A model generated the notes under the pieces. It was not told the origin of the DNA and did no database searches. It saw only the letters and a list, made by a program, of their open reading frames with translations. A program made the position numbers and the translations under genes. A DNA stretch of 64,000 nt from Jannaschia maritima (lineage in GTDB: Bacteria > Pseudomonadota > Alphaproteobacteria > Rhodobacterales > Rhodobacteraceae), in NCBI RefSeq assembly GCF_030973515.1, contig NZ_JARGZA010000012.1:1-64000 (forward strand), in the 5' to 3' direction. This document shows positions 42,128-62,281 of this stretch, one piece after another. Within the stretch, counting starts at the first letter, position 1. Each line of letters opens with the position of its first letter.

Positions 42128-42195
42128 AGCGAAATAGACAGGGCCGTGTCCTCGCGCGTCGCGCTGCGGGCCGCACCACCCCTGTCGATTTCGCT
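42128..42195 (+). repeat. structured core related to the 504-bp leader repeat
   Basis: A 15-16-bp stem with one mismatch (arms 42128-42143 and 42179-42195) encloses GGGCCGTGTCCTC, the hairpin GCGC-GTC-GCGC (42154-42164) and TGCGGGCCGCACCACC. The reverse strands of 45109-45149 and 53695-53735 carry the same flanks, but with GGGC-x4-GCCC as the hairpin. It is preceded by a G-rich hairpin (42096-42126) and sits 124 bp before the 50-residue gene. Confidence 0.65.
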
Positions 42196-42318
42196 CCACC
42201 CCCCACCTCTCGCGCTCGCCGCAAGGCAGGCGGTCAGGCGGGGCCTGACCGCCGCATCCATGATGACGTGGAGCGGTGTCCGGAGGCCCTGCCGTGCATC
42301 GGAGGATGAGGGAAAGCC

Positions 42319-42471
42319 ATGCCGCGCAAGGTGAGAACAGAAGCAAGGGCGATCAAGCGCATCCGGGACGCCCGGACCAGGGCCGTCGTCGGGTGGCTCT
42401 ACCGCTGGAAGGAAGGCGGGGAGTTTCCAATGTGGAAGGACGGCCCCAGGTCGGACGTGATCTATGAATGA
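42319..42471 (+). CDS. 50-residue basic microprotein, paralogue of the 6.3-kb gene
   Basis: The frame MPRKVRTEARAIKRI...RT-x2-VVGWLYRW...MWKDG...VIYE is complete and matches the protein at 6297-6464 over almost its whole length. GGAGGATGAGGGAAAG precedes the ATG. It overlaps the next gene by 8 bases, so it is translated in an operon. No known fold is recognised; the Trp/Lys-rich end could bind nucleic acid. Confidence 0.65.
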   Translation: MPRKVRTEARAIKRIRDARTRAVVGWLYRWKEGGEFPMWKDGPRSDVIYE

Positions 42472-42721
42472 GGGCGGCCTGTTCTGCCTGCGCGCCGAGG
42501 ATGCCGTCCGCGACCTCGGTGCGGTCTATTCGGCCTCCGAGGAAAGCCTGCGCGTCCTCGGCGCGGCTTATATGCGCGATTTGAAGACCATCGGCTCGCT
42601 CGTGCTGCACGGCCCGGACTACGCGGTGATCGCCATCTTCGATGTGTGGACGGACGATTGGCGGGAGGCCGGGTCGGACGGCGAGCCAGCTTCACATGGG
42701 CCGCGTCGAATGGTAAGATGA
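42464..42721 (+). CDS. small protein of unknown function
   Basis: This 85-residue protein (MNEGGLFCLRAEDAVRDLGAV...) starts within the stop of the microprotein gene, and its stop overlaps a possible start of the following secreted protein. I do not recognise a family. The tight overlaps are the main support that it is expressed. Confidence 0.55.
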   Translation: MNEGGLFCLRAEDAVRDLGAVYSASEESLRVLGAAYMRDLKTIGSLVLHGPDYAVIAIFDVWTDDWREAGSDGEPASHGPRRMVR

Positions 42722-42741
42722 AGGAAGAGCGGAGGCCCGTG

Positions 42742-43164
42742 ATGCGTGCGCTCAACCCTTTGATTCTCGGCGCTTTCCTTGGCGCGTTCCCGATGGCCGC
42801 CGCTGCCTGGGACCACAGCATCGAACGCGGGCTCGATCTCTATCAGGCCCGCGACGGCGGTGTTTCGGTCGCGCTCGTCTGCGATCCCAACAGCGTCTAC
42901 GGCGGGACGTCCCAAAGCGGCGTCCTGCTGAACCTCGTGGGCAATGTCGATGCGTCGCTGCCCGTGACGTTCCGCTTCCCGGACGGCATGGCCGTGCAGG
43001 CGGAGCTGGTTCACGGCCGCGTGGGCAAGGCCGAGATGGACGCGGGCGCGTGGGCCTCGCTTCTCGACGGGTTCCGCAGGAACGCCGCCATGACGCTCGA
43101 AGTCGGGGACGCGGCGTCCCGGCCGATCGAGCTGGGCGAGCCGGTGATGTTCACCTGTGTCTGA
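42742..43164 (+). CDS. small exported protein of unknown function
   Basis: From ATG 42742 (GGAGG 7 bases upstream) the product is 140 residues. It has a signal peptide (1-25, ending AAAA) and a beta-rich mature part including YQARDGGVSVALVCDPNSVYGG and FRFPDGMAVQAELVHG. An earlier ATG at 42718 overlaps the previous stop. It ends the three-gene rightward operon and is followed by strong hairpins. Family not recognised. Confidence 0.6.
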   Translation: MRALNPLILGAFLGAFPMAAAAWDHSIERGLDLYQARDGGVSVALVCDPNSVYGGTSQSGVLLNLVGNVDASLPVTFRFPDGMAVQAELVHGRVGKAEMDAGAWASLLDGFRRNAAMTLEVGDAASRPIELGEPVMFTCV

Positions 43165-43304
43165 CGGGAAGTCGCGGCGGCCTGCGTAAGCCGCCGCCGC
43201 GATATGCGTGCCTGTATGCGCCGCCTCTCGGGGTGGTTGCTTCACCTCTCAAGTTCTTCTGACAGAACGCCGAATCGCGGACAACCTCGGGGTTGGCGCC
43301 ATCC

Positions 43305-43347
43305 GGCGGGCCGGTCCGGCGCGCGCAGCGTGGCGGACCGGCCCGCC
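43305..43347. repeat. 14-bp perfect inverted repeat between convergent genes
   Basis: GGCGGGCCGGTCCG and its exact complement are separated by 15 bases. Together with a weaker hairpin at 43174-43197 it probably terminates the rightward operon. Confidence 0.5.
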
Positions 43348-43372
43348 GCGATTCCGCACCTTCCGAAACGAA

Positions 43373-43402
43373 GGCCCCCGCCGGGGAGGATCGGCGGGGG
43401 CC
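43373..43402 (-). terminator. terminator hairpin of the leftward ardC operon
   Basis: GGCCCCCGCC and GGCGGGGGCC form a 10-bp stem; on the leftward strand the loop is GATCCTCCCC and TTCGTTTC follows. It lies about 50 bp beyond the stop of the 73-residue gene. Confidence 0.6.
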
Positions 43403-43451
43403 ATCGGAGGCGCTGGACGGGGGAGGTCCGGCCTCTGGGGCTATGATCTGG

Positions 43452-43673
43452 TTATAGGATTCCCAGACGCAACAACCATGACGGGTGCCCATGGCAGCAT
43501 GTGCCGTCCGGGTCCACGCCCTCGCAACCGTCCGTCGCGATGCAGGCGCGATCGAATAGCATCGCCTCGATCTCGTCGGCCTCGGGCTGCGCCGTGGTCG
43601 GCTCGGGATAGGGTTTCCCGGTCAGCAGGTCGAACGGTGTGTCGTTTATAGCGCTGGACAGGTCCGAGGTCAT
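43452..43673 (-). CDS. small acidic Cys-containing protein
   Basis: From ATG 43673, which overlaps the previous stop (ATGA), the product is 73 residues. It has DTPFDLLTGKPYPEP and a C-terminal cluster of Cys (ACIATDGCEGVDPDGTCCHGHPSWLL) that could bind a metal. It is the last gene of the ardC operon. Family not recognised. Confidence 0.55.
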   Translation of the reverse strand: MTSDLSSAINDTPFDLLTGKPYPEPTTAQPEADEIEAMLFDRACIATDGCEGVDPDGTCCHGHPSWLLRLGIL

Positions 43674-44017
43674 GCCGCGCCCTCCGGCATCGTCAGCTCG
43701 GCCAGCCATGCGGGGCCGTGGGTGTTCCGCAGGCGGTGCAGGGCGGGTTCGGCCCGCGCCTCCGTCCAGTCGGCGCGCAGCGCGTCCTTCCAGCCGGGTC
43801 CGCGCAGGACCGCGAAGCGGGCGAGGGCGATCCGCTGCGAGGCGGTGAGCGTTCCCGCATGGGGAAGCTCGGCCAGGCGCGCGGCCTGCCGCAGGGCGGT
43901 CGTGCCCGCGTCGATCACTTCGGTTGCGGGCAGGTCGTGGAACGGACGCCAGAATGCGGCGCGGTCCTCGATGGTGGGGCCGACGCCCGCGCGCCGTTCC
44001 AGTTCGCCAAGGGTCAT
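43670..44017 (-). CDS. small protein sharing a C-terminal domain with the 58.0-kb gene
   Basis: The 115-residue protein ends in LARFAVLRGPGWKDALRADW...ALHRLRNTHGPAWLAELTMPEG. This aligns with LRAFAAAHGPAWRIAVAALW...WLTSLRVSHGRHWLARVSLEDG of the gene at 58041-58646. The shared pattern is L-x-x-F-x4-G-x-x-W ... LR-x-x-x-G-x-x-WLA. It lies between ardC and the Cys-rich gene. The domain is unnamed as far as I know. Confidence 0.6.
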   Translation of the reverse strand: MTLGELERRAGVGPTIEDRAAFWRPFHDLPATEVIDAGTTALRQAARLAELPHAGTLTASQRIALARFAVLRGPGWKDALRADWTEARAEPALHRLRNTHGPAWLAELTMPEGAA

Positions 44018-44067
44018 GGGGGAACCTCTCAAGGTGGTGGGGGTGTCGGGGAAGGGCAGGGGGCCGC

Positions 44068-44970
44068 TCACGCGGCCGCCCTCCCGATGTCGGCGTCCGC
44101 CTCGGCCGAGGTCCGGGCGTTCAGGAAATCGACGGCCTTCTGGGCTTCGGCGGCGGCGCGGAAGATCACGTCGCGGTCCGCCTTCATCGCTTCGATCCAG
44201 CCTTCGACATAGGCGGCGGACTGGTCGAATTGCGGCTCGATCCCGAGTTGCATCCCGAGGAAACAGGCCCCGAGTTCGGCCACCAGTTCCTCGAAGGCGT
44301 AGGCTTTGCGGTCGGCGAACCGCTTGATCCGGTCCAGCCGCTTTTCCGCGCCGGTCCAGTGGCAAAGCTCGTGGGCGAGGGTGCCGTAATACCCGGCCGC
44401 GTCGTGGAAGGTCTCGACGGGCGGCATGTGGATATGATCCGACGACGGGCGGTAGTAGGCGCGCGGCTCGGCGCTGGTCTCGATCCGCGCGCCGGTGGCG
44501 GCGAACCATGCGTCCAGTTCCGGGTCGGCCTCCGTCCCGAGGTCGCGGGGCGGGTCCGGGCGGACGTAGTAGGCTTCGGGCAAACCCTCGATCTGGTCGG
44601 CGTTGAAGACGTTGTTGACCTTGGCGAAATGGACGCGGCGCTTGCCGTCCTCGGCGGCCTCGTCCTCCTTCTCGACCGACCCGTAATAGACCGACTTCGC
44701 GGCCCGCTCGCCCTTGCGGACCATGCCGCCGAGTTCCTTAGCTTGGTTGAAGGTCATCCAGCGGTCGGAGGCGTAGCCTTTCACATGGGCCGCAGCCCAT
44801 AGGATCAGGATGTTGACGCCCTTGTAGCCCTCGCCGGTATGACGCAACGGGAAGCCCGCGACGGTGCGCGCGCCGGTCCACGGCTGACGCCACGGGGGCG
44901 TGCCCGCCTCGATCTGGGCGACGATCTGGTCGGTGACGTGCTGCCGGATGTCGAAACGCTCTTTTGCCAT
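44068..44970 (-). CDS. ardC: ArdC-like antirestriction protein
   Basis: The 300-residue protein has the ArdC N-terminal ssDNA-binding region (about 5-125, WRQPWTGARTVAGFPLRHTGEGYKGVN...WMTFNQAKELGG). It ends in a metallopeptidase-like domain with HELCHWTG (200-207) and FEELVAELGACFLG. ArdC proteins protect entering plasmid DNA from restriction. AAGGA lies 9 bases before the ATG. Everything upstream of that site is the 504-bp repeat shared with the DUF3768 gene. Confidence 0.9.
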   Translation of the reverse strand: MAKERFDIRQHVTDQIVAQIEAGTPPWRQPWTGARTVAGFPLRHTGEGYKGVNILILWAAAHVKGYASDRWMTFNQAKELGGMVRKGERAAKSVYYGSVEKEDEAAEDGKRRVHFAKVNNVFNADQIEGLPEAYYVRPDPPRDLGTEADPELDAWFAATGARIETSAEPRAYYRPSSDHIHMPPVETFHDAAGYYGTLAHELCHWTGAEKRLDRIKRFADRKAYAFEELVAELGACFLGMQLGIEPQFDQSAAYVEGWIEAMKADRDVIFRAAAEAQKAVDFLNARTSAEADADIGRAAA

Positions 44971-44984
44971 GCTCTCGTTCCTTG

Positions 44985-45488
44985 TGGTGTTGGTGGGGTC
45001 TGTTGCCCCTGTGGGTCGGGTTTGGAGGCACGGCGCGTGGCGCCGCTGTCCTGCAAACCTGGCCTCGCCGAGAGCGGAGGGGGGCGAGACAAGGGGAGAG
45101 GGACGGGGGTGGTGCGGCCCGCAGGGCGTCAGCCCGAGGACACGGCCCCGGCCCGACCCCTTGTCCGAGGGGGGAGGCTGCGCCGCCCCCCTGACCGGCG
45201 CAGCGGCGTTCGGCTTGCCCGAACCCCAAGCCCAAGAAGGATCCCGGTCGCGCGCGGCCACCGGCCGGGCCGATCCGGGCCGCCCCAGGGATCGTCACCC
45301 GCAAGGGCGGAGACGCGGCCCCGCGCCCGACCATGCCCCGCCCGCCAGGACGCGGCTCCGCAGGAGACGGGGCAGGGCGGAAGGGCCGGCGCGTCAGTGC
45401 AGGGCCGCCGGGGCAGGGAGGACGGGGGGACGCGGCTTCGGGAGGACCGAAGGGACGACTAGAGCCCGGTGCGCGTCAGCGCAGGGGC
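44985..45488 (-). repeat. 504-bp direct repeat, copy A (leader of ardC)
   Basis: I compared this block with 53571-54074 and found no difference. It starts 14 bp upstream of the ardC ATG, just before the ribosome-binding site, and ends 11 bp short of the stop of the next gene. Internal structures are an outer pair GACAAGGGG/CCCCTTGTC (45088-45096, 45157-45165) around GGGC-GTCA-GCCC, a GTTCGG/CCGAAC hairpin (from 45208) and a CTTCGG/CCGAAG hairpin (45436-45452). No conserved reading frame joins it to both downstream genes. Confidence 0.9.
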
Positions 45489-45498
45489 ACGGTCAGTT

Positions 45499-45798
45499 TT
45501 ACTCGAGACGGTTCTCCGACTGGCGGCCTTCCTTCATCGGGACGGTCACGGGCTCGATTCCGAGGTCCGCGATGAAGGAGATGATCCCGTCGATGGTCTT
45601 GATGGATCGCACCGTGTCCTGATCGCGGGTCGTGACGAGCTGGCGGGCGGTGCCGTCCGGCATCGCGATGGCGATGGTCCAGCTCCCGCGGATGCCGCTT
45701 GTCCTTCGGTGCGGAGGGTCTTCGCAGGTGACGACGACGGTGCCGCCCTCGGCCAGCAAGCCGGGAATCTCTGCTTCGGTGAAGACGTTCTCGGGCAT
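45499..45798 (-). CDS. member 2 of the three-copy uncharacterised family
   Basis: The 99-residue protein (GLLAEGGTVVVTCED...IRGSWTIAIAMPDGTARQLVTTRD...IKTIDGIISFIADLGIEPVTVPM) matches the proteins at 9670-10074 and 54386-54700 in order and spacing of motifs. The pattern is a beta-hairpin core ending in RQLVT-x-RD, then (K/R)T(I/L)(N/D)GI-S. ATG 45798 is preferred to 45804. It follows the Abi-like gene on the same strand. Function unknown. Confidence 0.65.
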   Translation of the reverse strand: MPENVFTEAEIPGLLAEGGTVVVTCEDPPHRRTSGIRGSWTIAIAMPDGTARQLVTTRDQDTVRSIKTIDGIISFIADLGIEPVTVPMKEGRQSENRLE

Positions 45799-45813
45799 CG
45801 GCACGATGAGCGG

Positions 45814-46587
45814 CTACGGGCGCTGCGCCAGCAGTGCCGTCACCGTCTCCGTCGATCGCAGCCATGCGGCGATGTCCGGCCGTCGCCACTCGACCAGCTT
45901 CAGCGCGGCGCGGAGGTCGGCGGCGAGGTCACGGGACAGCAGGGGTTCGTGATGGGCGATCCGGTTGCGGAAGTTGCGGATCGTCTGGATGCGGGCGCGG
46001 ACCTGGCCGCGCCCGACCTGCACGGTCATCTGCGGGGGTAGTCCGGGGAACGCCTGTCGCAGGTGCGGATTCCACAGCACCGCGTCCTGCGCCGCGACGA
46101 AGAGGTGCTGCCAGAAGACGAACTTGATGTCGGCCACGACGCTCCCGGCATGTTGGTGCCGCCGCGCGAGCGACCGAAGGTCGTCTCGCATCCGGTAGTG
46201 CCCGACTATTGGGCGAAGGGATTGCTGGAAGGCGGGGCTGCGGTGCCAGTCCGCGCCATAGACGGCCGCGATCGCTTCGACCGCCCCGTTGCGGGCCGCC
46301 AGCTCGGCGAATTGGAGCGGGGTGTAGAAGGCCGCCGCGAGGTCGGTGTGCCAGCAGTAGAGGTCCATCGCCTTCACGCGGTCCCCGCCGGCCTGCCTGA
46401 CATAGGTGGCGAAGCGCGGCGGCGAGAGGACGGCTTCGAGGTCTAGGAGGAGCTGGACGGGCGGGGTACGTGGCAAGGGCGGACGGGTCTCCGTGGACGG
46501 TGCGGGGCGGTCCCGAACCTTGACAGACGGGGCTCCGAAATGTAGGTAGGCCGGTGAATGACTGTTGGGGACCGGAGGTGGCGACAC
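45814..46587 (-). CDS. Abi-like (Abi_2/HEPN-type) protein
   Basis: The 257-residue protein has the order LEAVLSPPRFATYVRQAGGDRVKAMDLYCWHTDLAAAFYTPLQFAELAARN followed late by TIRNFRNRIAHHEPLL, the R-x4-H type motif of HEPN/Abi proteins. Such proteins are often RNases in phage-abortive systems. A GTG start follows AAGGGGGAAG. Plasmid carriage suggests defence of the host-plasmid pair. The true start could be about 40 residues later, where conservation begins. Confidence 0.65.
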   Translation of the reverse strand: MSPPPVPNSHSPAYLHFGAPSVKVRDRPAPSTETRPPLPRTPPVQLLLDLEAVLSPPRFATYVRQAGGDRVKAMDLYCWHTDLAAAFYTPLQFAELAARNGAVEAIAAVYGADWHRSPAFQQSLRPIVGHYRMRDDLRSLARRHQHAGSVVADIKFVFWQHLFVAAQDAVLWNPHLRQAFPGLPPQMTVQVGRGQVRARIQTIRNFRNRIAHHEPLLSRDLAADLRAALKLVEWRRPDIAAWLRSTETVTALLAQRP

Positions 46588-46610
46588 CTTCCCCCTTAGT
46601 CAACAGATCA

Positions 46611-46634
46611 AAGCCCGGTGCGAAAGCACCGGGC
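46611..46634 (-). terminator. terminator hairpin after the 104-residue membrane protein
   Basis: AGCCCGGTGC-GAAA-GCACCGGGCT is a perfect stem; reading leftward it ends in GGGCTTTGATC. It lies 20 bp beyond the stop of the gene at 46654. Confidence 0.65.
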
Positions 46635-46653
46635 TTCTTCGTTCGAGCTTTCG

Positions 46654-46968
46654 TCAGATGAAGAACGCGAGGATGGCGAAGACGAAGAGCGTCGCGCCGC
46701 CGGAAACGACGAGGAAGGTCGCAGCGCGCGAGGTCCGCGTCGTCAGGCCGTAATCCTCTATCGCGATCAGCAGGACGGCCAGCGCCGGCGCGAAGGCGGC
46801 GAGCGGACCGATGATGGCGGCGAAGATCGAGATGAGCGATCCGAGGGCGGCGGCCTGGCTGATGGCGACGCCGAAGCCGATGATCGCCGCGATGGTCGAG
46901 ATGGCGCCGGCCTGCCAGAGCAGGCGCGCGCGCGACGTCTCGTGAGCGGGCAGAAGATGGTCGAGCAT
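46654..46968 (-). CDS. small integral membrane protein
   Basis: From ATG 46968 (AAAAGGACACG upstream) the product is 104 residues with three probable membrane helices (about 20-45, 48-70, 80-103) and an extreme hydrophobic C-terminus. It is monocistronic, divergent from umuD and closed by its own terminator. No family recognised. Confidence 0.55.
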   Translation of the reverse strand: MLDHLLPAHETSRARLLWQAGAISTIAAIIGFGVAISQAAALGSLISIFAAIIGPLAAFAPALAVLLIAIEDYGLTTRTSRAATFLVVSGGATLFVFAILAFFI

Positions 46969-47061
46969 GGGTCGTGTCCTTTTATGGGGGTCTCCCGAGA
47001 TGATACGACTGGCCCGTGAATGTCGGAAACGGTTCTCCACAGGGTTCGTGCGACGGATTTC

Positions 47062-47105
47062 TTGACAGAGAGGGCGGCGCTCGCAGATTAGAACATAAAC
47101 AGAAC
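47062..47105 (+). promoter_or_regulatory. umuDC promoter with alphaproteobacterial LexA box
   Basis: TTGACA (47062-47067), a 17-bp spacer and AGATTA (47085-47090) form a sigma70-type promoter. GAAC-N7-GAAC at 47091-47105 is the alphaproteobacterial SOS box, placed right after the -10. LexA would block transcription until DNA damage or ssDNA entry triggers SOS. Confidence 0.8.
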
Positions 47106-47120
47106 ATCGGAAGGACTCGG

Positions 47121-47555
47121 ATGCCGCTCTATCGGATCGACACGCCCGTCATCGACCACGGCCAGCCGGTTCGCCTCGTGTCGCTGACCGTGAGTGCAGG
47201 GTTTCCGTCCCCGGCGGCCGACGATCTCGAAGACGAAATCGACCCGATCGCCTGGGTGGTGCGGCGGCCCAGCTCGACCTTCTGGTGGCGTGTCTCGGGC
47301 GACTGCCTCTGGGACGTGGGCATCCGCGACGGCGATCTGATCGCGGTGGACCGGGACGGCACTCGCCGCATCGGGCGCGCGGTCCTCGCCGTCGTGGACG
47401 GGCAGGTGACGGCGAAGATCCTTCGGCGTCGGAATGGGCGCTACTACCTCGCGCCTGCGAATGCGGGCGAGGACTTCCCCGACGTGGAACTGACGCCGGA
47501 CAGCGAGGTCTGGGGCGTGATCGCGGGCGTGGTCCGGCGCTACGAACTGGAATGA
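47121..47555 (+). CDS. umuD: UmuD-like S24 protein with Ser-to-Cys change
   Basis: The 144-residue protein keeps the UmuD cleavage region ([13 protein letters not shown], Ala-Gly bond at about 26-27) and the catalytic Lys (VTAKI, Lys99). At the nucleophile position, where UmuD reads GDSM, it has GDCLWD (Cys62). Self-cleavage may therefore use Cys or be lost. It overlaps umuC by 4 bases and sits behind a LexA box. UmuD' normally supports UmuC as polymerase V. Confidence 0.8.
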
Positions 47556-48823
47556 GCCGCCAACCGATCGCGATCTCGGACAGCAAGAACTTCTACGTCA
47601 GCGCGGAACGGGTCTTCGATACGTCGCTGGCGAACGTGCCGGTGATCGTGCTGTCGAACAACGACGGCTGCGCCGTGGCGCGCAGCGACGAGGCAAAGGC
47701 GCTCGGGATCAAGATGGGCGACCCGCTCCATCTGATCCGCGACAAGGTGGAAGCGCATGGGGTCCGGGTCTTCAGCTCGAACTACACCCTCTATGCGGAC
47801 CTCTCCCGGCGGGTGGTGGACACCTATGCGGACTTCACGCCCCATGTCGAAATCTACTCGATAGATGAGTGCTTTCTGGACTTCATGGGGTTCAGGGACC
47901 GCGAGGCGCACGCGCGCGCCATGCGTGCGGCCGTGCGCCGCCGGGTCGGCATCCCAATCCGGGTCGGCATTGCCAGCTCGAAGACGCTGGCGAAGGCGGC
48001 GAACGAACTGGCGAAGAAGAACCCCGTCTTCGACGGCGTGCTGGACCTGATGGATGAGGACCTGGCCCGCTGGCTCCTGCCGCGCGTGCCGGTGGGCGAC
48101 ATTTGGGGGATCGGCCGACGCACGGAAGCGAAGCTGAAGGGCGTCGGCATCGCCACGGCGGCGGAGCTCCGCGACATGCCGTTGCGCCAGGCCCGCAAGC
48201 TCGGCACGGTCGTTCTCGAACGGACCGTTCTGGAATTGCAGGGCGAACCCTGCCTGTCGCTCGAAGAGGTGGAGCCGCAGCGCAAGGGCATGGCCGTGAC
48301 ACGCTCGGCGTCCGCGCCGATGACCGACTTCGACACGCTGTTCCAGGCGATCACGGCCCATGCGACCCGGGCGGCCGAGAAGCTGCGCCAGCACGGGCTT
48401 GTGGCGGGGACGCTGACGGTGATCTTCCACACCAACAAGCACCGGCAGGACAGGCCGCAATGGTCGGCGGCGCGCTCCACGAAGCTGACGCCCATGTCCT
48501 CGGACACGTTCGACCTCGTGGACGCCGCGCGCAGGTGCGCGCGGTCGGGCTGGCCGAAGGACGGGAAACCCTACGGCTTCACCAAGGCCGGCGTCATGCT
48601 CGATGATCTGCTGCCGAGCGAGGATCGGCCGAGGACGCTCTTCGACGTCATGCGGCCGAAGTCGGCGCAGCTCATGTCCGCGCTCGATCAGGTGAACGAC
48701 CGTTTCGGGAAGAAGACGCTCGTGCTGGCGTCGGAAGGCATGAAGCGGCCCTGGGCGCTGCGCGCCGATCATCGGAGCCCGCGCTACACGACGCGCATCG
48801 AGGATCTTCCCGTGGTCCGCTGA
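47552..48823 (+). CDS. umuC: UmuC-like Y-family DNA polymerase (polymerase V catalytic subunit)
   Basis: The 423-residue protein has the Y-family catalytic residues ([16 protein letters not shown] with Asp10, and [10 protein letters not shown] near 105). It also has [30 protein letters not shown], thumb-domain [15 protein letters not shown] and the UmuC C-terminal part. It performs error-prone translesion synthesis with UmuD'. Plasmid umuDC pairs (RumAB/MucAB type) are frequent in leading regions. The rightward orientation is opposite to most neighbours. Confidence 0.93.
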
Positions 48824-48830
48824 CGCGGAC

Positions 48831-48893
48831 GGGGGACTGTCTGCCCCCCGGCGCTTGCGTGCCGTCCCCCGAGGATATTTCCGGGAAGATGAA
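48831..48893. repeat. REP-like intergenic element, copy 1
   Basis: GGGGG-x7-CCCCC hairpin, GGCGCTTGCGTGCC, then CCCCCGAGGATATTT and GGGAAGATGAA. The same order and most bases recur at 61564-61624. This one directly follows umuC. Confidence 0.6.
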
Positions 48894-49068
48894 TGGGAGG
48901 GGCTAGCGTTTCTTCGCGGCCCCGATGAGTGCAGCGAAACCGAAAAGGGCGATGAAGAGGGTGGCGACGACCATCCCGCCTCGTCCCGCGCGGTCAAGGC
49001 GTGGGCGTGCGGCGATCTGGGCGCTTCGGTGGCATATCCCGAGGATACGCGACGAATGTGAGAGGAAG

Positions 49069-49095
49069 GCGAAAGCCCCCGAGGGGGCTTCGCCC
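49069..49095 (-). terminator. terminator hairpin of the 53-residue basic gene
   Basis: AAGCCCCC-GA-GGGGGCTT extended by GGCGA/TCGCC lies 12 bp beyond the stop at 49107 on the leftward strand. Confidence 0.6.
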
Positions 49096-49106
49096 TGCGG
49101 CCGGAC

Positions 49107-49268
49107 CTAGTCCGCCCGGCGCTTCATGGTGAAGGTCAGCTTCAAGAAGATGACGTTGATCTCGATAGCAAGGCTCAGGTCGATCTTGCGGAGCTGGCGG
49201 CGGATGGTGCGGAGCCTGCGCGCGGTGCGGCGGCGGAGGCGGATGGATTTCTTGCGAAGGTAGGTCAT
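49107..49268 (-). CDS. 53-residue arginine-rich microprotein
   Basis: The frame starts MTYLRKKSIRLRRRTARRLR, continues TIRRQLRKIDLSLAIEINVIFLKLTF and ends MKRRAD. CAGGAGACAG is a clear ribosome-binding site, and a terminator follows. The first half is strongly basic; the second is a short hydrophobic segment. It may be a nucleic-acid- or membrane-associated peptide. It is preceded by an unusual nested inverted repeat. Confidence 0.5.
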   Translation of the reverse strand: MTYLRKKSIRLRRRTARRLRTIRRQLRKIDLSLAIEINVIFLKLTFTMKRRAD

Positions 49269-55136: not shown

Positions 55137-55493
55137 TCACTGGTCCTGCTGCGCCTTGCGGGCCTGCCGGCGGCGCTCGTCGTGGCTGAAGTTGTCGAAA
55201 TCCTCGGCCGCCATCGTGATCCCGTATTCGGTCCCGCCTTCCTTGTTCTCCCAGCTCGTCTGGCGGACGGTGCCGAAGGCCCGGACGATGTCGCCCGGCT
55301 GGGTGTTTTCGCGCACCCACTTGGCGACGTTCTCGTTGAAGATCGTGACCTCGTTCCAGTAGGGCTTCGACTGGAATTCGCCCTTGTCGTCCTTGCGGCC
55401 GTATTCGGCGGCGACGCTGACCCGGAGGGTGTTGCCGACTTCCTTGTGCTTCCCGACCCGGCCGATGATCTCGAATTGTGCGAAGGTTCTCAT
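55137..55493 (-). CDS. ssb: single-stranded DNA-binding protein
   Basis: The 118-residue OB-fold protein has IIGRVGKHKEVGNTLRVSVAAEY, SKPYWNEVTIFNENVAKWVRENTQPGDIVRAFGTVRQTSWE and a basic Gln-rich end. It lacks the acidic C-terminal tip of chromosomal SSB. A plasmid SSB would coat the entering strand in the recipient, and ssb is a hallmark of leading regions. Confidence 0.85.
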   Translation of the reverse strand: MRTFAQFEIIGRVGKHKEVGNTLRVSVAAEYGRKDDKGEFQSKPYWNEVTIFNENVAKWVRENTQPGDIVRAFGTVRQTSWENKEGGTEYGITMAAEDFDNFSHDERRRQARKAQQDQ

Positions 55494-55581
55494 GGTGTGT
55501 CTCCTCGGTGAGAGTGTTTCGATGAAGAACGGGCACGCCGGGGGGCGATGCGCTCAAGGGAAAAGTCGGAGGATCCGCGCG

Positions 55582-55609
55582 CTTTATAAAGAAGCGTAGA
55601 GATTATAAT
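55582..55609. promoter_or_regulatory. AT-rich divergent promoter region of ssb and thermonuclease
   Basis: CTTTATAAAG (palindrome at 55582-55591) and ATTATAAT (55602-55609), which gives TATAAT on both strands, form an AT-rich island in otherwise GC-rich DNA between the divergent genes. The rest of 55494-55945 holds no gene I can support. Confidence 0.45.
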
Positions 55610-55945
55610 ATTGTGTGGAAACCGTCTTTTTGCTTGGAGGCGGACGAAGGCCGCCGGGCGCAAAGAGCCCCCCGAGCGATGTTCCGTGATGAGAAACACG
55701 TCCGGGGAGACGAATGGGAACCGTGCCGCCCAGTATTCGGTGGGCGGGTCTGCACAAGGATGGCGGCGGCACCCGTCAGCGTTCCCGCAGGCCAAAGCGC
55801 GAGGACGACAAGGGTGATTGGCGAAGCTGGAACGATGGTCTCTTGATCGGAAACGATCGCCGAGGGGCGCGAGGACGAACGGACGGTCGTGGCTATGCGC
55901 TTGGTCGTCCGCAAAATGGGTGAACAAGGAAGGCTGGACCGGATA

Positions 55946-56398
55946 ATGGGATCGACGGCGACGATGATCGGCTTCTACCTCGTGGCCGCTTGCCTTCCGA
56001 TCGGCGCGGCCGTGGTGGCGGCGGAGCGGGTCAGCGGCCCGGTCGATCATGTGCGCGATGCGGACACAATCATTGTGCAAGGCGTCCCGGTCCGCTTCAA
56101 CGGCGTGGATGGCGCCGAACGGGGCACCCGTCGGGGCGAGGCCGCACGTGACTGGATGCTAGACGCGGTGCGCGGGCGCGAAGTGCGGTGCGAGCTGAAC
56201 GGCGAGCGGACCCATGACCGCTGGGTCGGCGTCTGCTTCATCGAGGTCGATGGCGCGTGGACCGACCTCGGCGGACTGGTGATCGCCGCCGGTCTCGCGC
56301 TCGACTGCCCGCGCTACTCGGACGGGCGCTATGCCGCGCTGGAAACGGCCCGCGCCCGTCTCGTCCAGTCGCGGGCATCCTACTGTTACCCCCGATGA
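55946..56398 (+). CDS. second thermonuclease-family protein, minimal form
   Basis: From ATG 55946 the product is 150 residues, with an N-terminal hydrophobic segment and an SNase-like domain (GPVDHVRDADTIIVQGVPVRFNGVDGAERGTRRGEAA, then DRWVGVCFIEVDGAWTDLGGLVIAAGLALDCPRYS). It lacks the C-terminal tail of the enzyme at 5370. ATG 55964 is an alternative start. Likely exported; role unknown. Confidence 0.75.
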   Translation: MGSTATMIGFYLVAACLPIGAAVVAAERVSGPVDHVRDADTIIVQGVPVRFNGVDGAERGTRRGEAARDWMLDAVRGREVRCELNGERTHDRWVGVCFIEVDGAWTDLGGLVIAAGLALDCPRYSDGRYAALETARARLVQSRASYCYPR

Positions 56399-56438
56399 GC
56401 GGTCCGGGCGATGACGGTCGCCTGGCTGGGGTGCGCTG

Positions 56439-56759
56439 ATGCCTGGGCGGCCCGCCTCGGCGTCCATCGCGGCGTGGTCCGCGCGCCAGCCGGGAGGTCG
56501 CACGGTGACGATCGCGCACCGCCGCGTCGTCGCCGCGCTGGCGCTGTCCCGGTCCGATGAGCCACCTCTGCGTCATCCCCGCGAAAAGCTCCTGACACTA
56601 CTCAAGGAAGCGGAGCCGGGGACGGTTTTCGAGCGCGCTTCCGGCCAACTCGAACTGTTCCCGGAGGTTGAGGCGGACGAGCTGTGCCAACTCGATAGGA
56701 TGGCGTCGCGGGTCGGACTGGAAGACGACGCCCTGCGATCACCACCGTCGTCAGGGTGA
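56439..56759 (+). CDS. possible small protein of unknown function
   Basis: The 106-residue frame contains VTIAHRRVVAALALSRSDEPPLRHPREKLLTLLKEAEPGTVFERASGQLELFPEVEADEL, which looks protein-like in the middle. The first 20 residues do not. The end overlaps the stop region of the convergent gene. No domain recognised. Confidence 0.35.
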   Translation: MPGRPASASIAAWSARQPGGRTVTIAHRRVVAALALSRSDEPPLRHPREKLLTLLKEAEPGTVFERASGQLELFPEVEADELCQLDRMASRVGLEDDALRSPPSSG

Positions 56760-57272
56760 CGCGATTTCGCGGCGCGCGATCCGAAGGATTTCTTCGTATC
56801 CGTCGGAGAAGCACTTCGATTCCATGGCAACAATGTTAGGGGGGAGGCCATGTTCATCCACCGCCTCCAAGGCCGTTCCGATTGACAGAAATGCGCGGTC
56901 AAACTCGGGCGACACGATTAGGCGGCTTGCATCGAACGTCTGTTTAGCCGTGCTCCACGCCGCCCATGCAGCGCGGGCGCGCTCGCGGCTCTCCTTCGAC
57001 CCGTGATAACCCTCGGGTCCGTGTTCATGATTGTAGTATCCATCGGCATCTCGACCTGCCTCAGCGGCGGCCTTCTTCAAGTGCGCGACGATTTCGGAAT
57101 ACTGACTGCGCCGTAGATCCCAGATGCGATCTTCATGGTGGCGTTCCTTGGCAGTCTTCGCGCGGTTTCGCTCGATCACCCACGTTGTCGCCAAAGTCAG
57201 ACCCGAACCGATGACCAGTGTGAGGATGGTTAGAAGGGGGCCGATCCACGGCGCGGTCGTCTGGTCTTCCAT
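56751..57272 (-). CDS. single-pass membrane protein with cytoplasmic helix
   Basis: From ATG 57272 the product is 173 residues. One N-terminal membrane helix (WIGPLLTILTLVIGSGLTLATTWVI, about 9-33) is followed by a charged helical region (RNRAKTAKERHHEDRIWDLRRSQYSEIVAHLKKAAAEAG...). This resembles small phage or plasmid membrane proteins of unknown role. No family recognised. Confidence 0.6.
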   Translation of the reverse strand: MEDQTTAPWIGPLLTILTLVIGSGLTLATTWVIERNRAKTAKERHHEDRIWDLRRSQYSEIVAHLKKAAAEAGRDADGYYNHEHGPEGYHGSKESRERARAAWAAWSTAKQTFDASRLIVSPEFDRAFLSIGTALEAVDEHGLPPNIVAMESKCFSDGYEEILRIARREIASP

Positions 57273-57324
57273 GATGGCCTCCAATCGGATCGCCACGCAT
57301 AGGTCCGAACATCGTCTCGCGGAA

Positions 57325-57351
57325 GAAAAAAGGCCCCGCCGGAGCAGGGCC
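57325..57351 (-). terminator. terminator hairpin with T-run after the 120-residue gene
   Basis: Reading leftward, GGCCCTGCTCCGGCGGGGCC forms a stem with one mismatch and is followed by TTTTTTCTTC. It lies about 60 bp beyond the stop at 57414. Confidence 0.75.
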
Positions 57352-57413
57352 GAGGAATTCCTCACCACAAGGAATAGGGGAAGCGCGGCGGCCTGGCCGT
57401 CCGCGCGGTAAGT

Positions 57414-57776
57414 CTATGTGCCACCCGCGCCGTGGATCGCCAACCAGTTCGGTCCCGGCTCGATCGCGTCGGCTTCGCGTTCTAGGACGGCCAGCCGATT
57501 GTTGATCGCCACGATGAGGGTGGTCTGCGGCGCAGCCGCTCGGTGCCCCCGGAGGGGTTGGCACAGCCCGGACGGGCCGCGCAGGAAGAGGTCGCTGACC
57601 CTGCGTAGCAGGTCCGCGTCGGTCTCGCGCGCGATCATCGCGACCGGCAGGGCGGCAACGTGGCAGGTCCACGGCTCGACGCGCCGAGTGGCTCGTCTGC
57701 GCCCGATGATATGGGTCGCGACCATCCATTCGGTGAGGTCGTGCCAGTCGAGCCGGGTGCCGGGCGTGCGGGTCAT
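57414..57776 (-). CDS. protein of unknown function
   Basis: The 120-residue protein (MTRTPGTRLDWHDLTEWMVATHIIGRRRATRRVEPWTCHVAALP...) overlaps the preceding zinc-binding-like gene by 4 bases and is last in a leftward operon with a strong terminator. No domain recognised. Confidence 0.5.
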   Translation of the reverse strand: MTRTPGTRLDWHDLTEWMVATHIIGRRRATRRVEPWTCHVAALPVAMIARETDADLLRRVSDLFLRGPSGLCQPLRGHRAAAPQTTLIVAINNRLAVLEREADAIEPGPNWLAIHGAGGT

Positions 57777-58048
57777 ATCAGGACTCCTTGGCGGGGATCG
57801 GCCTCGGGGCGCGGGCGGATGCCGACGCGGCCTCGCGGATCGATGGTCCAGCCGTCCGCCGTGCGCTCGACGCTCGCGTCCGGCCCATGACGCTTGATGA
57901 ACACGCGGTCGGCTTCAGCCTTGCGCGCGAGATGCAGGTCCGATGCCCGGTGGCCCGAGGGTCGGGCGCACCACGATCCGGGCCGTGCGCTGCAAACGGG
58001 GCAGGCGACGGCGAGGACCGGGTGACGATGGGCGGTGAAATCAGACAT
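57773..58048 (-). CDS. short zinc-finger-like protein (C-x2-C...GH motif)
   Basis: The 91-residue protein has VLAVACPVCSARPGSWCARPSGHRASDLHLARKAEAD, a recurrent motif of small proteins in alphaproteobacterial plasmids and prophages. It has a CxxC pair, a third Cys and His residues fit to bind zinc. It overlaps the amber-interrupted gene by 8 bases. Function unknown. Confidence 0.65.
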   Translation of the reverse strand: MSDFTAHRHPVLAVACPVCSARPGSWCARPSGHRASDLHLARKAEADRVFIKRHGPDASVERTADGWTIDPRGRVGIRPRPEADPRQGVLI

Positions 58049-58646
58049 GGCAGCGCCCGTCCTCCAGGGAGACGCGCGCCAGCCAGTGCCGCCCGTGCGA
58101 CACGCGGAGGCTCGTCAGCCATCCGGGCTCGCGATCCGCGTCCCAGAGGGCCGCGACGGCGATCCGCCATGCCGGACCGTGCGCGGCGGCGAAGGCCCGC
58201 AAGCGGTCGAGCTGGTCGGTTCGCACCGTGAGCCGGTCGTAGCGCCGTCCCGAGGGGTCCGTCCGGCTCGCATAGAGCGGGTCGGCCAAGTCCACGCGGC
58301 CCCGGTCGATCTGGGTCAGGAAGTCGAGAAGATAGCTCGGATCGGCGGGGAAGGGCGCGCGGTCCCACGCGCGGCGGATCAGGGTCCGCTCGCGGAGGGG
58401 CCGGGCCGCGATGGCGCGGCGGGCGCGGTGCCAGTTCGCCGCACGCCGGTCGCGATCCTCCTACTGGGTCCGGTCCCAGACGACGGCGCGGCGCCGCATC
58501 ACCTCGTCCTCGCTCGGTTGCGCGGCTGCGATCTGGGCGCTGAACAGGGGCAGGGCCTCGCGTTCGGCGGCCTGCTTGCGGCGGAGATGCCCGCGCTTGC
58601 GGGCCGTGTCGGTGAAGGGGGTTCGGGGGTATCGCTTGCAGCGCAT
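58041..58646 (-). pseudogene. 200-residue accessory gene interrupted by one in-frame TAG
   Basis: The frame from ATG 58646 encodes MRCKRYPRTPFTDTARKRGH...EDEVMRRRAVVWDRTQ, meets TAG at 58461-58463, and continues open in the same frame with EDRDRRAANWHRARRAIAARPLRERTL...AFPADPSYLLDFL-like sequence to 58041. Both halves fit one protein type that I associate with such plasmids. The region after the stop has no ATG, GTG or TTG until 58295. It is either a recent nonsense mutant or read through. The C-terminus shares a domain with 43670-44017. Confidence 0.65.
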
Positions 58647-58711
58647 GATCCGGCTCCTCGGGGTTGCTGGGGATCGGGGAGGGGGCGGGCTCACGGCCTG
58701 CCCCGCCCTTG

Positions 58712-60562
58712 TCAGGCCATGCCCTCGGGGAGCCAGTTCGCGATGCGGTCCCGCTGCGCCTTGGTCAGGCCGTGCGCCTCGCGGGTCGCCTCGTCGTTGA
58801 ACAGGTCGTGCAGCTTCCCGACCTTCTCGCCCTTCTTCAACTTCGCGAAGGTCGTGGCGGTCGGGTGATCCTCCGCGAGGTCGAGCAAGTCCTGCCACAG
58901 GGCATTGAGGTAGGGACCGCCCACCCGACCGAAGAAGTTCTCCCCGGTGGGGGCCCACACGTCGCGGGTGCGCCGCCCGGTGGCCTTGTCGATCATCGCG
59001 CCCAACTCGGCGTCGGGGACCGTCAACAGGCTGGCGAGGTAGCCGTTCAGGGCCTCCATGACCTTCTTGTCGCCCCGCTTGCGGAAGGCGGCGAAGTCCT
59101 TCCCGACCTCCGACCCGAACCCCGCCTCGTAGCGCTCGGCGATGGACGACAGGCGCTTGTCGAGCGTGTAGCCCGTCTCGGTCTCGGGCGCGTTCGCAGG
59201 CGGGTTCACGGTCAGGCCGAAGGCATAGCCGTAGCCCATCTTGCCGGACAGGTGGAACGCCAGCAGGTGCAGGGCCAGCTTCGGGTCGGTCAGGAGCGCG
59301 GCCTGCCGCGCGCCCTTCTCGATCCGGTCCAAGTCGCCCCGCAGCTTGTCCGAGATAGGCGACTTCGGGGCGGTCTCGCCCGTGGTGCCGTGCTGGGACG
59401 CGGCGAGGATGCCCGCCGCCATCGCCTCCTTGCGGTCCTCGGGCTTCACCAGCCCCTCGGCCACCTTGATCGTCCCGCCGCGCGCGACGTAGAGGACGGC
59501 CCCCGCCACGGCCTTCTGCTCGTCGGTGAACGCGCCGTCCGCCTTGGCCTGCAACGCCTCCAACTCGGCTTCGCCGTCCTCGTCCAGCACGTCGCCGTTC
59601 GCCAGTTCGGCCAACTCGTCATACCGCTCGGACTCGGCCTCCGACAGGTCGCCCTCCACCGGATAGACCCGACCGAATTTGCGGTCCTCGGTGAAGCCGT
59701 AGGGCAGGTAATCCTCGGGATGGGTCTCGACCCATTTCCAGCCGTGGGCCTCCGCGAAGTCGTCTGCCGCCTTCGCCAGCTTCGCCGCGAACAACTCGTC
59801 CAGAAGGGCGGTGTCATCGAACAGGGTCTCGTCCGCGAACAGGTCGCCCCCAATGCGCCCCCCGGCCTCCTTGTAGGCGTCCACGCCCACGAAGGCCGCG
59901 CGCCGGTCGCTCTCCTTGACCGCGCCGGGGCGCAGCATCGCCTTGATTTGGTGATCGGACAGCGCGTAGCGCCCGTTCGCCGCGTCCTCCACGATCCGGG
60001 TCAGCACCTCGATCATCAGCTTCTCGTCCTGCCCCACGGTGAAGGCGGCGGCATGGGACAAGCTGATCTGACCGGCCTTCAAGGCGTCCAGCACGGGATC
60101 GGGCAGGCCCGCCAGCGCCAGGCGGCGATAGACGTGCTTCTCGGTGACGCCGTAGGCCACGGAAATGTCGGCCACGCTCACGCCGCGCCGATCCATCGCG
60201 CCGTAGTCGCGGATTTCGTCGGCGGGGTGCAGAGCCTCGCGTTGGCCGTTCTCCGAGGTCGCCCACAGACGGGCCGTCTCGGCATCCGGCGCGATCTGCA
60301 CGGCGACGGTCTGGAACCGGGGGTCGTCCTGCAGGAGGGCCAGCGCGCGCAGCCGCCGCCCGCCCGCGACGACGCCCACGCGGGTGCCGTCCTCGTCGCG
60401 CAGGCCCCCGAGGTTCTGGATCAGGCCCACCTTGCGGATGTTCTCGGCCAGCACGGCGACGGCGCTTTCGCTGACGACGGTGCGGGGGTTGAGGTCGGAC
60501 AGGTAGAGGTCCGCGAAGGGCACGGACTCGATGGTGGCGGCGATCTTGGTCTGGTCGGTCAT
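58712..60562 (-). CDS. large ParB-like DNA-binding protein, no ParA partner
   Basis: The 616-residue protein has a ParB/Srx N-terminal domain (LNPR about 24-27, GLIQNLGG, VVAGGRRLRAL about 65-73, SENGQREALHPADE) and a KorB-type helix-turn-helix (about 125-150, VADISVAYGVTEKHVYRRLAL). A long C-terminal half rich in Asp/Glu/Lys follows. Size and isolation from a ParA resemble the ParB-like proteins of enterobacterial leading regions (YubM type) rather than segregation ParB. Confidence 0.88.
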   Translation of the reverse strand: MTDQTKIAATIESVPFADLYLSDLNPRTVVSESAVAVLAENIRKVGLIQNLGGLRDEDGTRVGVVAGGRRLRALALLQDDPRFQTVAVQIAPDAETARLWATSENGQREALHPADEIRDYGAMDRRGVSVADISVAYGVTEKHVYRRLALAGLPDPVLDALKAGQISLSHAAAFTVGQDEKLMIEVLTRIVEDAANGRYALSDHQIKAMLRPGAVKESDRRAAFVGVDAYKEAGGRIGGDLFADETLFDDTALLDELFAAKLAKAADDFAEAHGWKWVETHPEDYLPYGFTEDRKFGRVYPVEGDLSEAESERYDELAELANGDVLDEDGEAELEALQAKADGAFTDEQKAVAGAVLYVARGGTIKVAEGLVKPEDRKEAMAAGILAASQHGTTGETAPKSPISDKLRGDLDRIEKGARQAALLTDPKLALHLLAFHLSGKMGYGYAFGLTVNPPANAPETETGYTLDKRLSSIAERYEAGFGSEVGKDFAAFRKRGDKKVMEALNGYLASLLTVPDAELGAMIDKATGRRTRDVWAPTGENFFGRVGGPYLNALWQDLLDLAEDHPTATTFAKLKKGEKVGKLHDLFNDEATREAHGLTKAQRDRIANWLPEGMA

Positions 60563-60628
60563 GGGTTTACGTTCCTTGTCGGTGGTGAGGTTGGGGAGTG
60601 CCCCGCCCGTGGGGGACGGGGCGCGGGG

Positions 60629-60847
60629 CTATGCGCCCTCTTGGTCGGTCCAGTCGCTCGCCCAATGGTCCAGCATGGCGACGACGCGCCCTTGCGGATC
60701 GGTCAGGGTGAGGTCCGGGACGATCTGCGCCTGCCGGTGGTGATCGCGGCCCAGCATTCGCAGGACGTCCTCGCTCTCGGCATGGACTTCCTCGTTCGTG
60801 GTCAGGTCCGGGTGGTCGATGGTGAGCGTCCAAGCGGCCCGCCTCAT
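60629..60847 (-). CDS. small acidic protein of unknown function
   Basis: The 72-residue protein (MRRAAWTLTIDHPDLTTNEEVHAESEDVLRMLGRDHHRQAQIVPDLTLTDPQGRVVAMLDHWASDWTD) overlaps the DUF1419 gene (ATGA) and precedes parB. No domain recognised. Confidence 0.55.
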   Translation of the reverse strand: MRRAAWTLTIDHPDLTTNEEVHAESEDVLRMLGRDHHRQAQIVPDLTLTDPQGRVVAMLDHWASDWTDQEGA

Positions 60848-61182
60848 GCGACCGGCTCCAGCTTGCGGACATGAGCGTTGAACGCCGCCACGGTGGCGAG
60901 GAAGTCGGATTGCGACCCGTGGCGGACGGCGAGGCAGAAGGCCCGCTTGCCGACCATGATCCACGCATCCGACAGGTTCTCGGTCGCGGCCTCGGACATG
61001 ACGAACGCGCTGCCGGTGAAGTTCACCGGGGGCAGGATCGACAGGAAGTAGTCCCACATCTCGGGGGTGGTCTCGAACCACTGGCCCGCGCTGCGCTGGT
61101 GCGCTTCGTAGCCACGGTTCAACAGGGCGAAGGTCGCGGTGCGGTCGGCCACGCCCTCCCCTATGTTCTGGAAATCATCCAT
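60844..61182 (-). CDS. DUF1419 domain protein
   Basis: The 112-residue protein matches the DUF1419 pattern: TFALLNRGYEAHQRSAGQWFETTPEMWDYFLSILPPVNFTGSAFVMSEA, with the conserved GxWFE and WDYxxxILPP. The family is common on alphaproteobacterial plasmids and uncharacterised. It is the first gene of the leftward parB operon. Upstream lies the region with the diverged leader copy. Confidence 0.75.
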   Translation of the reverse strand: MDDFQNIGEGVADRTATFALLNRGYEAHQRSAGQWFETTPEMWDYFLSILPPVNFTGSAFVMSEAATENLSDAWIMVGKRAFCLAVRHGSQSDFLATVAAFNAHVRKLEPVA

Positions 61183-61868
61183 CTTTCTTCCTTTATGGTG
61201 AGCCGCGTTCTCGATCTTGGTGCCGAAAATTGGGGCAGGTGGTCAGGCGAGGATCGCGAAGCGGCCCTCTCCTTACCGCTTGCCCGTCGGCGAGACCGGG
61301 AGGGGGGCCCGCGCCAGGTTCCCGACAAGGAAGGGGGGGAGGGGGATCACCCGGCGACGCAGCCCGACCGAAGGGAGGGACCGTCGTTGGGGACACCCTC
61401 CCTGACGCCGATCGGGAGCCTTGCGTGGGGGAACCGGCGGTTCCCAGGCGGACGACCCGAAGGGGAGGACCATCAAGGGCAGGGGCGTTCGGCTTGTCCG
61501 AATCCCGCTGCCTGTCGCGGACCCCGTTCGCGGGGGCCTCCTAAGCCTCTCCCGCCACGGCGAGGGGGCTGTCTGCCCCCGGGCGCTGATGCGCCTCCCC
61601 CGAGGATATTTCGGGGAAGATGAAGCCGCAGGGGATCCGCCCCGGTCATTGGACGTGCCACGTCGTTCTGATACTATGGGGATGCGGAACAGGCAGGGAT
61701 GCCGATGGCCGTGGAAGGTGAAGGGGCGTGAGCCCGATCACGTGAGAGCCGGGGACGTCGTGCTCTGGTTCCCCTCACCCGAAGGGGAACGACATGGGAC
61801 AGGATTTGAGCTGGTCGGTGCAGGCCGTTCTCTGACCGCCTGCGACGCGCGAGGCCCTTCGGTCCCGG
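61183..61868. other. long non-coding stretch upstream of the parB operon
   Basis: No frame looks coding. It contains GGCGTTCGGCTTG-TCCGAATCCC (61484-61506), the same hairpin-bearing motif as copies A and B of the 504-bp repeat, and the second REP-like element. Confidence 0.55.
61564..61624. repeat. REP-like intergenic element, copy 2
   Basis: GGGGG-CTGTCTG-CCCCC hairpin, then CTCCCCCGAGGATATTT and GGGAAGATGAA, closely matching 48831-48893. I recall similar C-rich, GATATTT-containing intergenic repeats in Rhodobacterales genomes. Confidence 0.6.
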
Positions 61869-62072
61869 GTGTCGTTCCGGCGTTGGATCATGCTGACGGT
61901 CATTTCCGTCTCGATGGTCGGGATGGTCCTGTTCGCCGGATCCTTCTGGATGTCGTTCTACGCGGCGTCCGGGGGCCAGGCCCTTCCGATCTTCGTCGGC
62001 ATGGTCGTCGTCGCGATCTACTACGCGGCCGTCACAACGGTCCTCATGTTGGGCATTCGCCCGATCGAATGA
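61869..62072 (+). CDS. small two-helix membrane protein
   Basis: The GTG-started 67-residue protein has two hydrophobic segments (IMLTVISVSMVGMVLFAGSFW, about 7-27, and LPIFVGMVVVAIYYAAVTTVLML, about 39-61). No family recognised. It lies between the split pieces of the diverged leader copy. Confidence 0.5.
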   Translation: MSFRRWIMLTVISVSMVGMVLFAGSFWMSFYAASGGQALPIFVGMVVVAIYYAAVTTVLMLGIRPIE

Positions 62073-62108
62073 CTGGCGCAGCCGGACGGCCAGCGGCGGC
62101 TTGGGCGA

Positions 62109-62281
62109 GGATCGTCACCCGGAAGGCGGAGACACGCGCTCTTGGCCGACCATGACCCGCCCGCATCGAGATGGCTCCGCAGGAGACGGCGCGGGGCGGC
62201 AGGCCGGCGCCGCAGGCGGCGGACCGCCGGGTCAGGGAGGACGGGGGCGCGGGGCTCCGGGAGGCGGAGCCGACTAGAGCC
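62109..62281 (-). repeat. diverged partial copy C of the leader repeat
   Basis: GGATCGTCACCCG, GGCGGAGAC, the GACCATG-CCCGCCCGC stretch, GGCTCCGCAGGAGACGG, GGGAGGACGGGGG and CGACTAGAGCC occur in the same order and spacing as in 45289-45466. The hairpin near its end is GGCTCCG-x5-CGGAGCC (62253-62271) instead of CTTCGG-x5-CCGAAG, so pairing is kept with different bases. Confidence 0.75.

Follow-up and report, generated by a model that had tools for sequence, protein, structure and literature searches.

Structured leaders of conjugative leading regions as candidate single-stranded DNA promoters

We analysed a 64,000-nucleotide (nt) stretch of DNA from Jannaschia maritima (contig NZ_JARGZA010000012.1, positions 1 to 64,000; hereafter, the window), in which repeated, structured leaders stand before genes on one side of a predicted origin of transfer (oriT). 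These leaders belong to a family of structured elements that occurs on plasmids and integrative conjugative elements (ICEs) of alpha-, beta- and gammaproteobacteria and that apparently has no name. By analogy with Frpo of plasmid F, we lean towards the view that they are Frpo-like promoters, unrelated to Frpo in sequence, that would be active on single-stranded DNA. If this is true, the leaders switch on anti-defence genes while a plasmid enters a new cell as a single strand. The elements also mark leading regions and point to establishment genes without an assigned role.

Repeated leaders in the window

Two long leaders on the − strand, at 44,979–45,488 (core 45,112–45,145) and 53,564–54,074 (core 53,698–53,731), are 99.8% identical across 511 columns and read toward oriT, the first into ardC and the second into a DUF3768 gene. 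A third copy, nearest oriT (42,115–42,227, + strand), matches their core at 71% in the opposite orientation and reads away from oriT; the core covariance model, R1, matches it at 42,116–42,206 (core 42,144–42,176) with 72.5 bits. A preliminary description, made from the letters alone, had noted repeated, structured leaders here and the opposite orientation of the core at 42.1 kb. A fourth copy, at 62,109–62,287 (−), has no core and matches only the upstream part of the long leaders (78%, to 45,289–45,473). A previously unlisted variant, type 2 core (GGTGTCCCCAAC..CTGCGT.GCCGGGTGAT) at 61,346–61,397 (−) leads a DUF1419 gene (60,844–61,182; PF07215).

The repetition itself is confirmed by pairwise identity, by a search of the assembly and by the absence of the core pattern from shuffled sequence. 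A whole-assembly search with leader DNA, in which 40 of 147 first-look candidates were scored, reported no place beyond the four described at E ≤ 0.001, and R1 gave three strong (E < 1e-12) and four weak (E 0.1–7) matches, with no further assembly copy reported. The core pattern occurs three times in the window versus zero times in 100 window shuffles. Fuzzy matches with four mismatches, at 9,103 and 45,934 of the window, 23,697 of locus L169 and 10,142 of L271, were left uncounted.

An upstream module, E1 (ATGGTCG..GGGTGACG), occurs at 45,289–45,473, 53,875–54,059 and 62,109–62,287 of the window and at about 730 in L044; among the loci compared, none was found outside these two. The near-identical direct repeats at 44,979–45,488 and 53,564–54,074 enclose 8 kb that include umuDC, which recombination between them would delete; recombination between Frpo1 and Frpo2 of F is discussed in like terms in the available text of PMC9849209.

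A shared core within covarying arms

The core consists of CCGTGTCCTC (short form GTGTCCTC), a variable hairpin and then TGCGGGCCGCAC, and is flanked by arms that differ in sequence among lineages but keep their complementarity. Across 56 copies, 92.8% of cells are paired and 108 show a change on both sides, against 77.0% and 34 in shuffles; the covariation score of 0.355 compares with 0.124 or less for slid partners. Together with computed folds of the window leader, this gives a stable, covarying hairpin. One position of the type 2 core also covaries, by our own reading of the copies.

Strong covariation and a position 5′ of genes would suit a cis-acting leader whose fold acts in the mRNA as a riboregulator. 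The element has no counterpart in Rfam: the window gives no match at the gathering score, and relaxed settings give seven weak matches (up to E 5) in 41.9–62.4 kb, none of them on the elements. Together with the direction of stem mismatches described below, this leaves the riboregulator very improbable.

Distribution and classes

BLAST searches with the leaders recovered plasmids of Phaeobacter, Paracoccus, Ruegeria, Leisingera and others, and matches to the core extend to Sphingobium, Skermanella, Cupriavidus, Delftia and Citrobacter. With one genome per species, a degenerate core pattern collected at least 116 stretches; 11 loci judged spurious by eye (L017, L018, L027, L034, L038, L065, L074, L077, L078, L097 and L111) were left out of the final strand and box counts, whereas one other count set aside only L017, L027, L038 and L074 and kept L065. 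At E ≤ 1e-4, R1 detected the element in 18 of 149 genomes from the family and 11 of 398 from the phylum. At E ≤ 1e-5, it did so in 88 of 390 genomes sampled from the order and in 2 of 385 from the class; single genomes have as many as eight matches. With a 231-base query from class A, 238 plasmid records match.

The arms divide the copies into four classes: A, comprising beta- and gammaproteobacterial integrative elements; B; C, with the window copies at 45.1 and 53.7 kb; and D, with the window copy at 42.1 kb. The second core type occupies the same setting at 61.4 kb of the window, in L006 (two copies) and in L009, with a divergent example in L153.

The template strand as the probable folding strand

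A single strand that folds on itself tolerates G·T (G·U) pairs on that strand, and the other strand then shows A·C. Counting this wobble asymmetry offers a sequence-based test of whether a fold acts as RNA, as duplex DNA or as a single DNA strand; the bias reported here has the sign opposite to that predicted by an RNA leader, and a duplex operator predicts no bias. We scored pairing symmetrically, counted mismatches flanked by Watson–Crick pairs and retained only the top match at each place.

Among 203 distinct copies with an exact core, the sense strand shows 76 A·C and 27 G·T mismatches. The excess persists for distinct events within clusters (46 versus 23, P = 0.008), for derived events at sites paired in most copies of a cluster (26 versus 5, P = 2e-4) and with one representative per cluster at 90% (37:18, P = 0.014). 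The 967 control hairpins, taken from these loci at a distance of 400 nt or more and given ungapped scoring, split 330:334. RNAalifold energies also favour the antisense strand over the sense strand in class A (−50.7 versus −36.4), class B (−62.9 versus −44.8) and class D (−75.9 versus −72.0). Nine copies of F Frpo behave with the same sign (−141.8 antisense versus −119.5; 15 G·T and 5 A·C). On the class D antisense strand, well-aligned stems hold seven G·T and zero A·C cells, by our own reading of the event list, and all stems together hold 21 and nine. Given the mismatch counts, the control hairpins, the energies and the agreement with Frpo, the strand that folds is probably the one that serves as template for the downstream gene, a view we hold with moderate confidence.

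The sense-strand excess of A·C over G·U, two- to five-fold, runs in the wrong direction for the mRNA riboregulator. A duplex DNA operator or cruciform to which a plasmid regulator binds would account for palindromic arms and for an orientation tied to genes, and it gains from the fading of the strand bias in the strictest counts. A palindrome of this kind, however, predicts no strand asymmetry, as the control hairpins illustrate, and here the arms vary freely by compensation while an asymmetric core is kept. We regard a duplex operator as improbable.

Promoter-like boxes

The preliminary description suggested looking for paired −10- and −35-like elements on the + strand of each copy; boxes of this kind on the folded strand proved to be a feature of class A alone. 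With class A copies anchored for this count on downstream sequence only, TTG, 15–18 nt and TAnnnT occur on the folded strand in 42 of 45 copies, against a shuffled mean of 0.07 and none of 45 on the sense arm. The spacer is always 16 nt (TTGA-16-TAnnGT), and the boxes are mostly TTGACG and TACAGT; the three copies without boxes are off-register matches, and the set also includes the exact match from each of their loci. In the class A consensus fold, the −35-like box lies in a paired stem and the −10-like box lies where the opposite arm is not complementary. This predicted architecture is that reported for Frpo, the stem-loop of which reconstitutes −10 and −35 boxes (PMC9849209, available text). 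For classes B, C and D and for the window copies, fold, position and downstream genes suggest a promoter role. A scan for duplex σ70 promoters found no site on the − strand at 42,050–61,700, a result of little weight because only 1.5 sites were expected by chance on both strands.

In duplex form, the class A boxes also make up a divergent promoter, and a structured antisense RNA made from the strand opposite the genes would be expected to show the same strand asymmetry. A transcript from these boxes would nevertheless begin beyond the hairpin and not contain it, and divergent open reading frames (ORFs), checked in 25 class A loci, are inconsistent in length and place; an antisense RNA is therefore quite improbable.

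Several observations weigh against a single-stranded DNA promoter. Pairs with change on both sides are not more numerous than in shuffles (8 versus 7.0; 153 of 500), and 5 of the 14 pairs are invariant; the sameness of the core and these invariant pairs arise in part because the collection pattern fixes the core. When each cluster has a single representative, the strand bias does not reach significance at 80% (21:13, P = 0.23) or 70% (16:7, P = 0.09), class B alone is balanced in a smaller set (4:4) and class C folds equally on both strands (−18.3 and −18.7; RNAalifold). In the alphaproteobacterial classes, the boxes are not above chance: class B (0 of 34), class C (3 of 173; 4.5 when shuffled) and class D (1 of 10; 0.3 when shuffled). 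They are absent from the two window copies tested, and the class A copies that carry them are close relatives. Finally, the proximal copy has the non-template orientation on the entering strand.

Orientation relative to oriT

A nic-like site, CCCTATTTCCTG/CCAA, lies at 39,844–39,859 (+), with a predicted nick at 39,855/39,856 and the entering strand running rightward. The motif ATTTCCTGC, which we take to resemble RP4 nic, would make the + strand the entering strand and the right side the leading side, so that 40–62 kb would enter first, as the preliminary description supposed. In eight regions compared, the motif lies at the mobC-like gene start or shortly ahead of it, in the same orientation, in the window, L006, L009 and L173; L007, whose stretch lacks relaxase and mobC, carries a TTCCTGCCAACC variant, and the motif was not found in L169, L170 or L172. 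An earlier scan for the RP4-type ATCCTGY found no nic in the oriT region; the relaxed motif was then found by comparison.

We counted orientation in 32 loci searched for anchors and in L346; this covers few of the 8-kb loci from the core-pattern search, and several of the anchored plasmids are related to each other. Nineteen loci have a relaxase, mobC or virC1 anchor. In all 12 with a proximal copy (the window, L006, L007, L009, L044, L169, L170, L173, L265, L267, L268 and L269), this copy, the closest to oriT, is directed away from it. All 26 non-proximal copies read toward oriT: three each in L007, L265 and L266; two each in the window, L170 and L172; and one each in L005, L044, L169, L173, L268, L269, L277, L278, L282, L283 and L346. 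The four anchored type 2 copies also read toward oriT. The one unusual case is L282, whose single copy lies about 700 bp before the relaxase gene and reads toward it; we counted it as toward. For L173, in which virC1 was not detected, we took as proximal the copy closest to the nic-like motif. L266 and L267 belong to a single contig, and L051 was left out because its contig has the same length (51,543) as that of L265. L092, L264, L270–L276 and L279–L281 are without an anchor, and L008, L171, L174, L344 and L345, which the model search also covered, were left uncounted, as they have no clear anchor of the element's own. The oriT of the Tn4371 family has been shown experimentally to lie in the traF–traI gap (PMC11448139, available text), and the class A element reads toward the traF–traI side, fitting L005 and L346.

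The placement of the leaders in the leading region and the reading of distal copies toward oriT, both proposed previously, are thus upheld. The reversed core at 42.1 kb, ahead of rightward genes, had been flagged as something the proposed model must explain; it follows a conserved rule, which Frpo does not explain.

Genes led by the element

We scanned 54 proteins, 46 of them among the 97 first ORFs that a script placed behind 103 copies and eight added by hand. They include DUF3768 (nine), DUF932 (eight), ArdC (seven) and ParB_N (two) proteins, and about half fall in none of these. ArdC of R388 is required in recipients (PMC7213743, available text). Core and start codon lie 189–206 nt apart for 28 of 38 class A copies, with ORFs of 274–279 amino acids, and 170–181 nt apart for 12 of 17 class B copies.

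Behind the proximal copy of the window lie a gene for a basic protein of 50 amino acids (42,319–42,471, +), with relatives in the same place in L006 (64%), L009 (58%), L269 (60%) and L044 (98%), and a gene for a secreted-type protein (42,718–43,164, +), 45–47% identical in L006, L009 and L269. These proximal-copy genes have no match in Pfam, NCBIfam or PADLOC. Paracoccus proximal copies lead a different conserved ORF.

A possible route to early expression

Placement, distal orientation and the likely side of entry agree with the single-stranded DNA promoter proposed in the preliminary description, as does, moderately, a fold on the template strand; the boxes do so only in class A. During conjugation, the entering strand (presumably the + strand of the window) would be the template of the leftward leading genes. 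On it, each leader could form a long hairpin of arm, core and loop directly 5′ of an establishment gene (ardC, DUF3768, DUF932, DUF1419 or others). The hairpin would offer a local duplex to the host RNA polymerase, and the genes that it leads might be transcribed before a second strand exists. Nick position, polymerase recruitment and the timing of expression are inferred here.

The hairpins could instead be single-strand initiation sites that load primase or make a primer for the second strand, with gene expression secondary. Sites of this kind need the same strand and the same region, and Frpo has reportedly been described, by Masai and Arai in 1997, as both a promoter and a priming site. 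The near-constant distance to start codons in classes A and B, the presence of several copies per plasmid and the fact that proximal copies, though reversed, still lead conserved genes fit initiation sites less well, and we consider them rather improbable.

The proximal copy has a conserved orientation and leads conserved genes, and its stems suggest that the template strand of those genes is the one that folds. In the donor, that strand would be the one retained. Promoter activity on single strands might then be two-sided: distal copies would fire on the entering strand in the recipient, and the reversed proximal copy on the retained strand in the donor, upon peel-off, driving its small genes or priming replacement synthesis. 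This switch is speculative and, on balance, unlikely; the reversed copy does make a donor response to strand exposure testable.

Comparison with known systems

Like Frpo/ssi of F and ColIb-P9, the element lies in the leading region, as a large hairpin before establishment genes with an antisense fold favoured, and has SSB, DUF932 and ParB-like genes as neighbours; near-identical copies repeated kilobases apart are a further likeness (PMC9849209, available text). It differs in its compact core with freely varying arms, its one reversed proximal copy, its boxes in class A only and its alpha-, beta- and gammaproteobacterial carriers. As a test of homology to known Frpo/ssi sequence, R1 was run on the leading region of F and gave nothing at E ≤ 1.

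The Frpo-like candidates of Samuel et al. 2024 (PMC11541004) resemble the element in that they concern anti-defence islands, leading regions and predicted single-stranded DNA promoters; according to the text available, they were found by BLAST to five Frpo/ssi sequences and by −35/−10 scans of four islands. The main text does not contain the word Alphaproteobacteria. Our element may be identical with one of the candidates in the supplement. Two surveys of single-stranded DNA promoters, as their available text describes them, search by likeness to Frpo or among four-island candidates and so could miss the family. Tn4371-family ICEs carry the class A element before DUF932 genes, ParB-like genes or both; the available text of PMC11448139 describes promoters and oriT of that family and no such element. 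Across the available text of open-access literature, including PMC11541004, PMC9849209, PMC12826799 and PMC11448139, we recognised no description of the element.

An inverted repeat at ssb

The preliminary description had named ssb among the leading-region genes. No core element was found before ssb, and a different, much larger structure is present instead. This is an imperfect inverted repeat of about 770 nt (55,200–55,968), one arm of which is the 5′ part of ssb (55,137–55,493) and the other an inverted, degraded copy of that part. The palindrome recurs in L009 (about 690 nt) and L169 (about 570 nt) and is absent from L048. With RNA parameters, its antisense fold in the window has −440 kcal/mol, against −345 (standard deviation 10) in 12 shuffles; the corresponding values are −358 versus −287 in L009 and −379 versus −342 in L169. 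As Frpo2 lies upstream of F ssb (PMC9849209, available text), the palindrome may, by parallel, be an independent single-stranded DNA leader.

Other features of the window

The window, part of contig C3 in a 3.67-Mb assembly, carries a plasmid-type region, in which Pfam identifies a coupling protein (34,536–36,929, −), a VirD2/MobA-type relaxase on the lagging side (36,922–39,267, −; PF03432), a helix–turn–helix, NikA-like (mobC-like) protein, a VirC1-like ATPase gene adjoining oriT (40,479–41,336, +; PF07015) and a RepC-type replication gene. Of the leading-region set named previously, Pfam supports ardC (44,068–44,970, −; PF08401 and PF18818, start codon chosen by eye), DUF3768 (about 53,162–53,554, −), SSB (55,137–55,493, −) and a ParB-like (HTH_ParB) gene (58,712–60,562, −); the methyltransferase is a sub-threshold match only, in a DUF4942 gene (50,871–52,469, −). 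The distal leaders and their genes do read leftward, toward oriT, as had been stated; the UmuD/UmuC-like genes (about 47,016–48,823, +) read rightward.

Between the nic-like site and the VirC1-like gene, 40,168–40,660 contains many 7-nt direct repeats (ACGGATGA/GGATAAC type, 14-nt register), possibly a relaxosome or partition binding array. Within the leading region, 45,814–46,587 (−) encodes an Abi_2/PD-T4-5-like protein (PADLOC, E 7e-14), and 43,366–43,436 (−) matches the 6C RNA family below threshold (40.4 bits; cutoff 47). A 62-nt intergenic repeat containing CCCCGAAATATCCTCGGGG occurs at 48,832–48,893 and 61,564–61,624, with 87% identity between the two copies.

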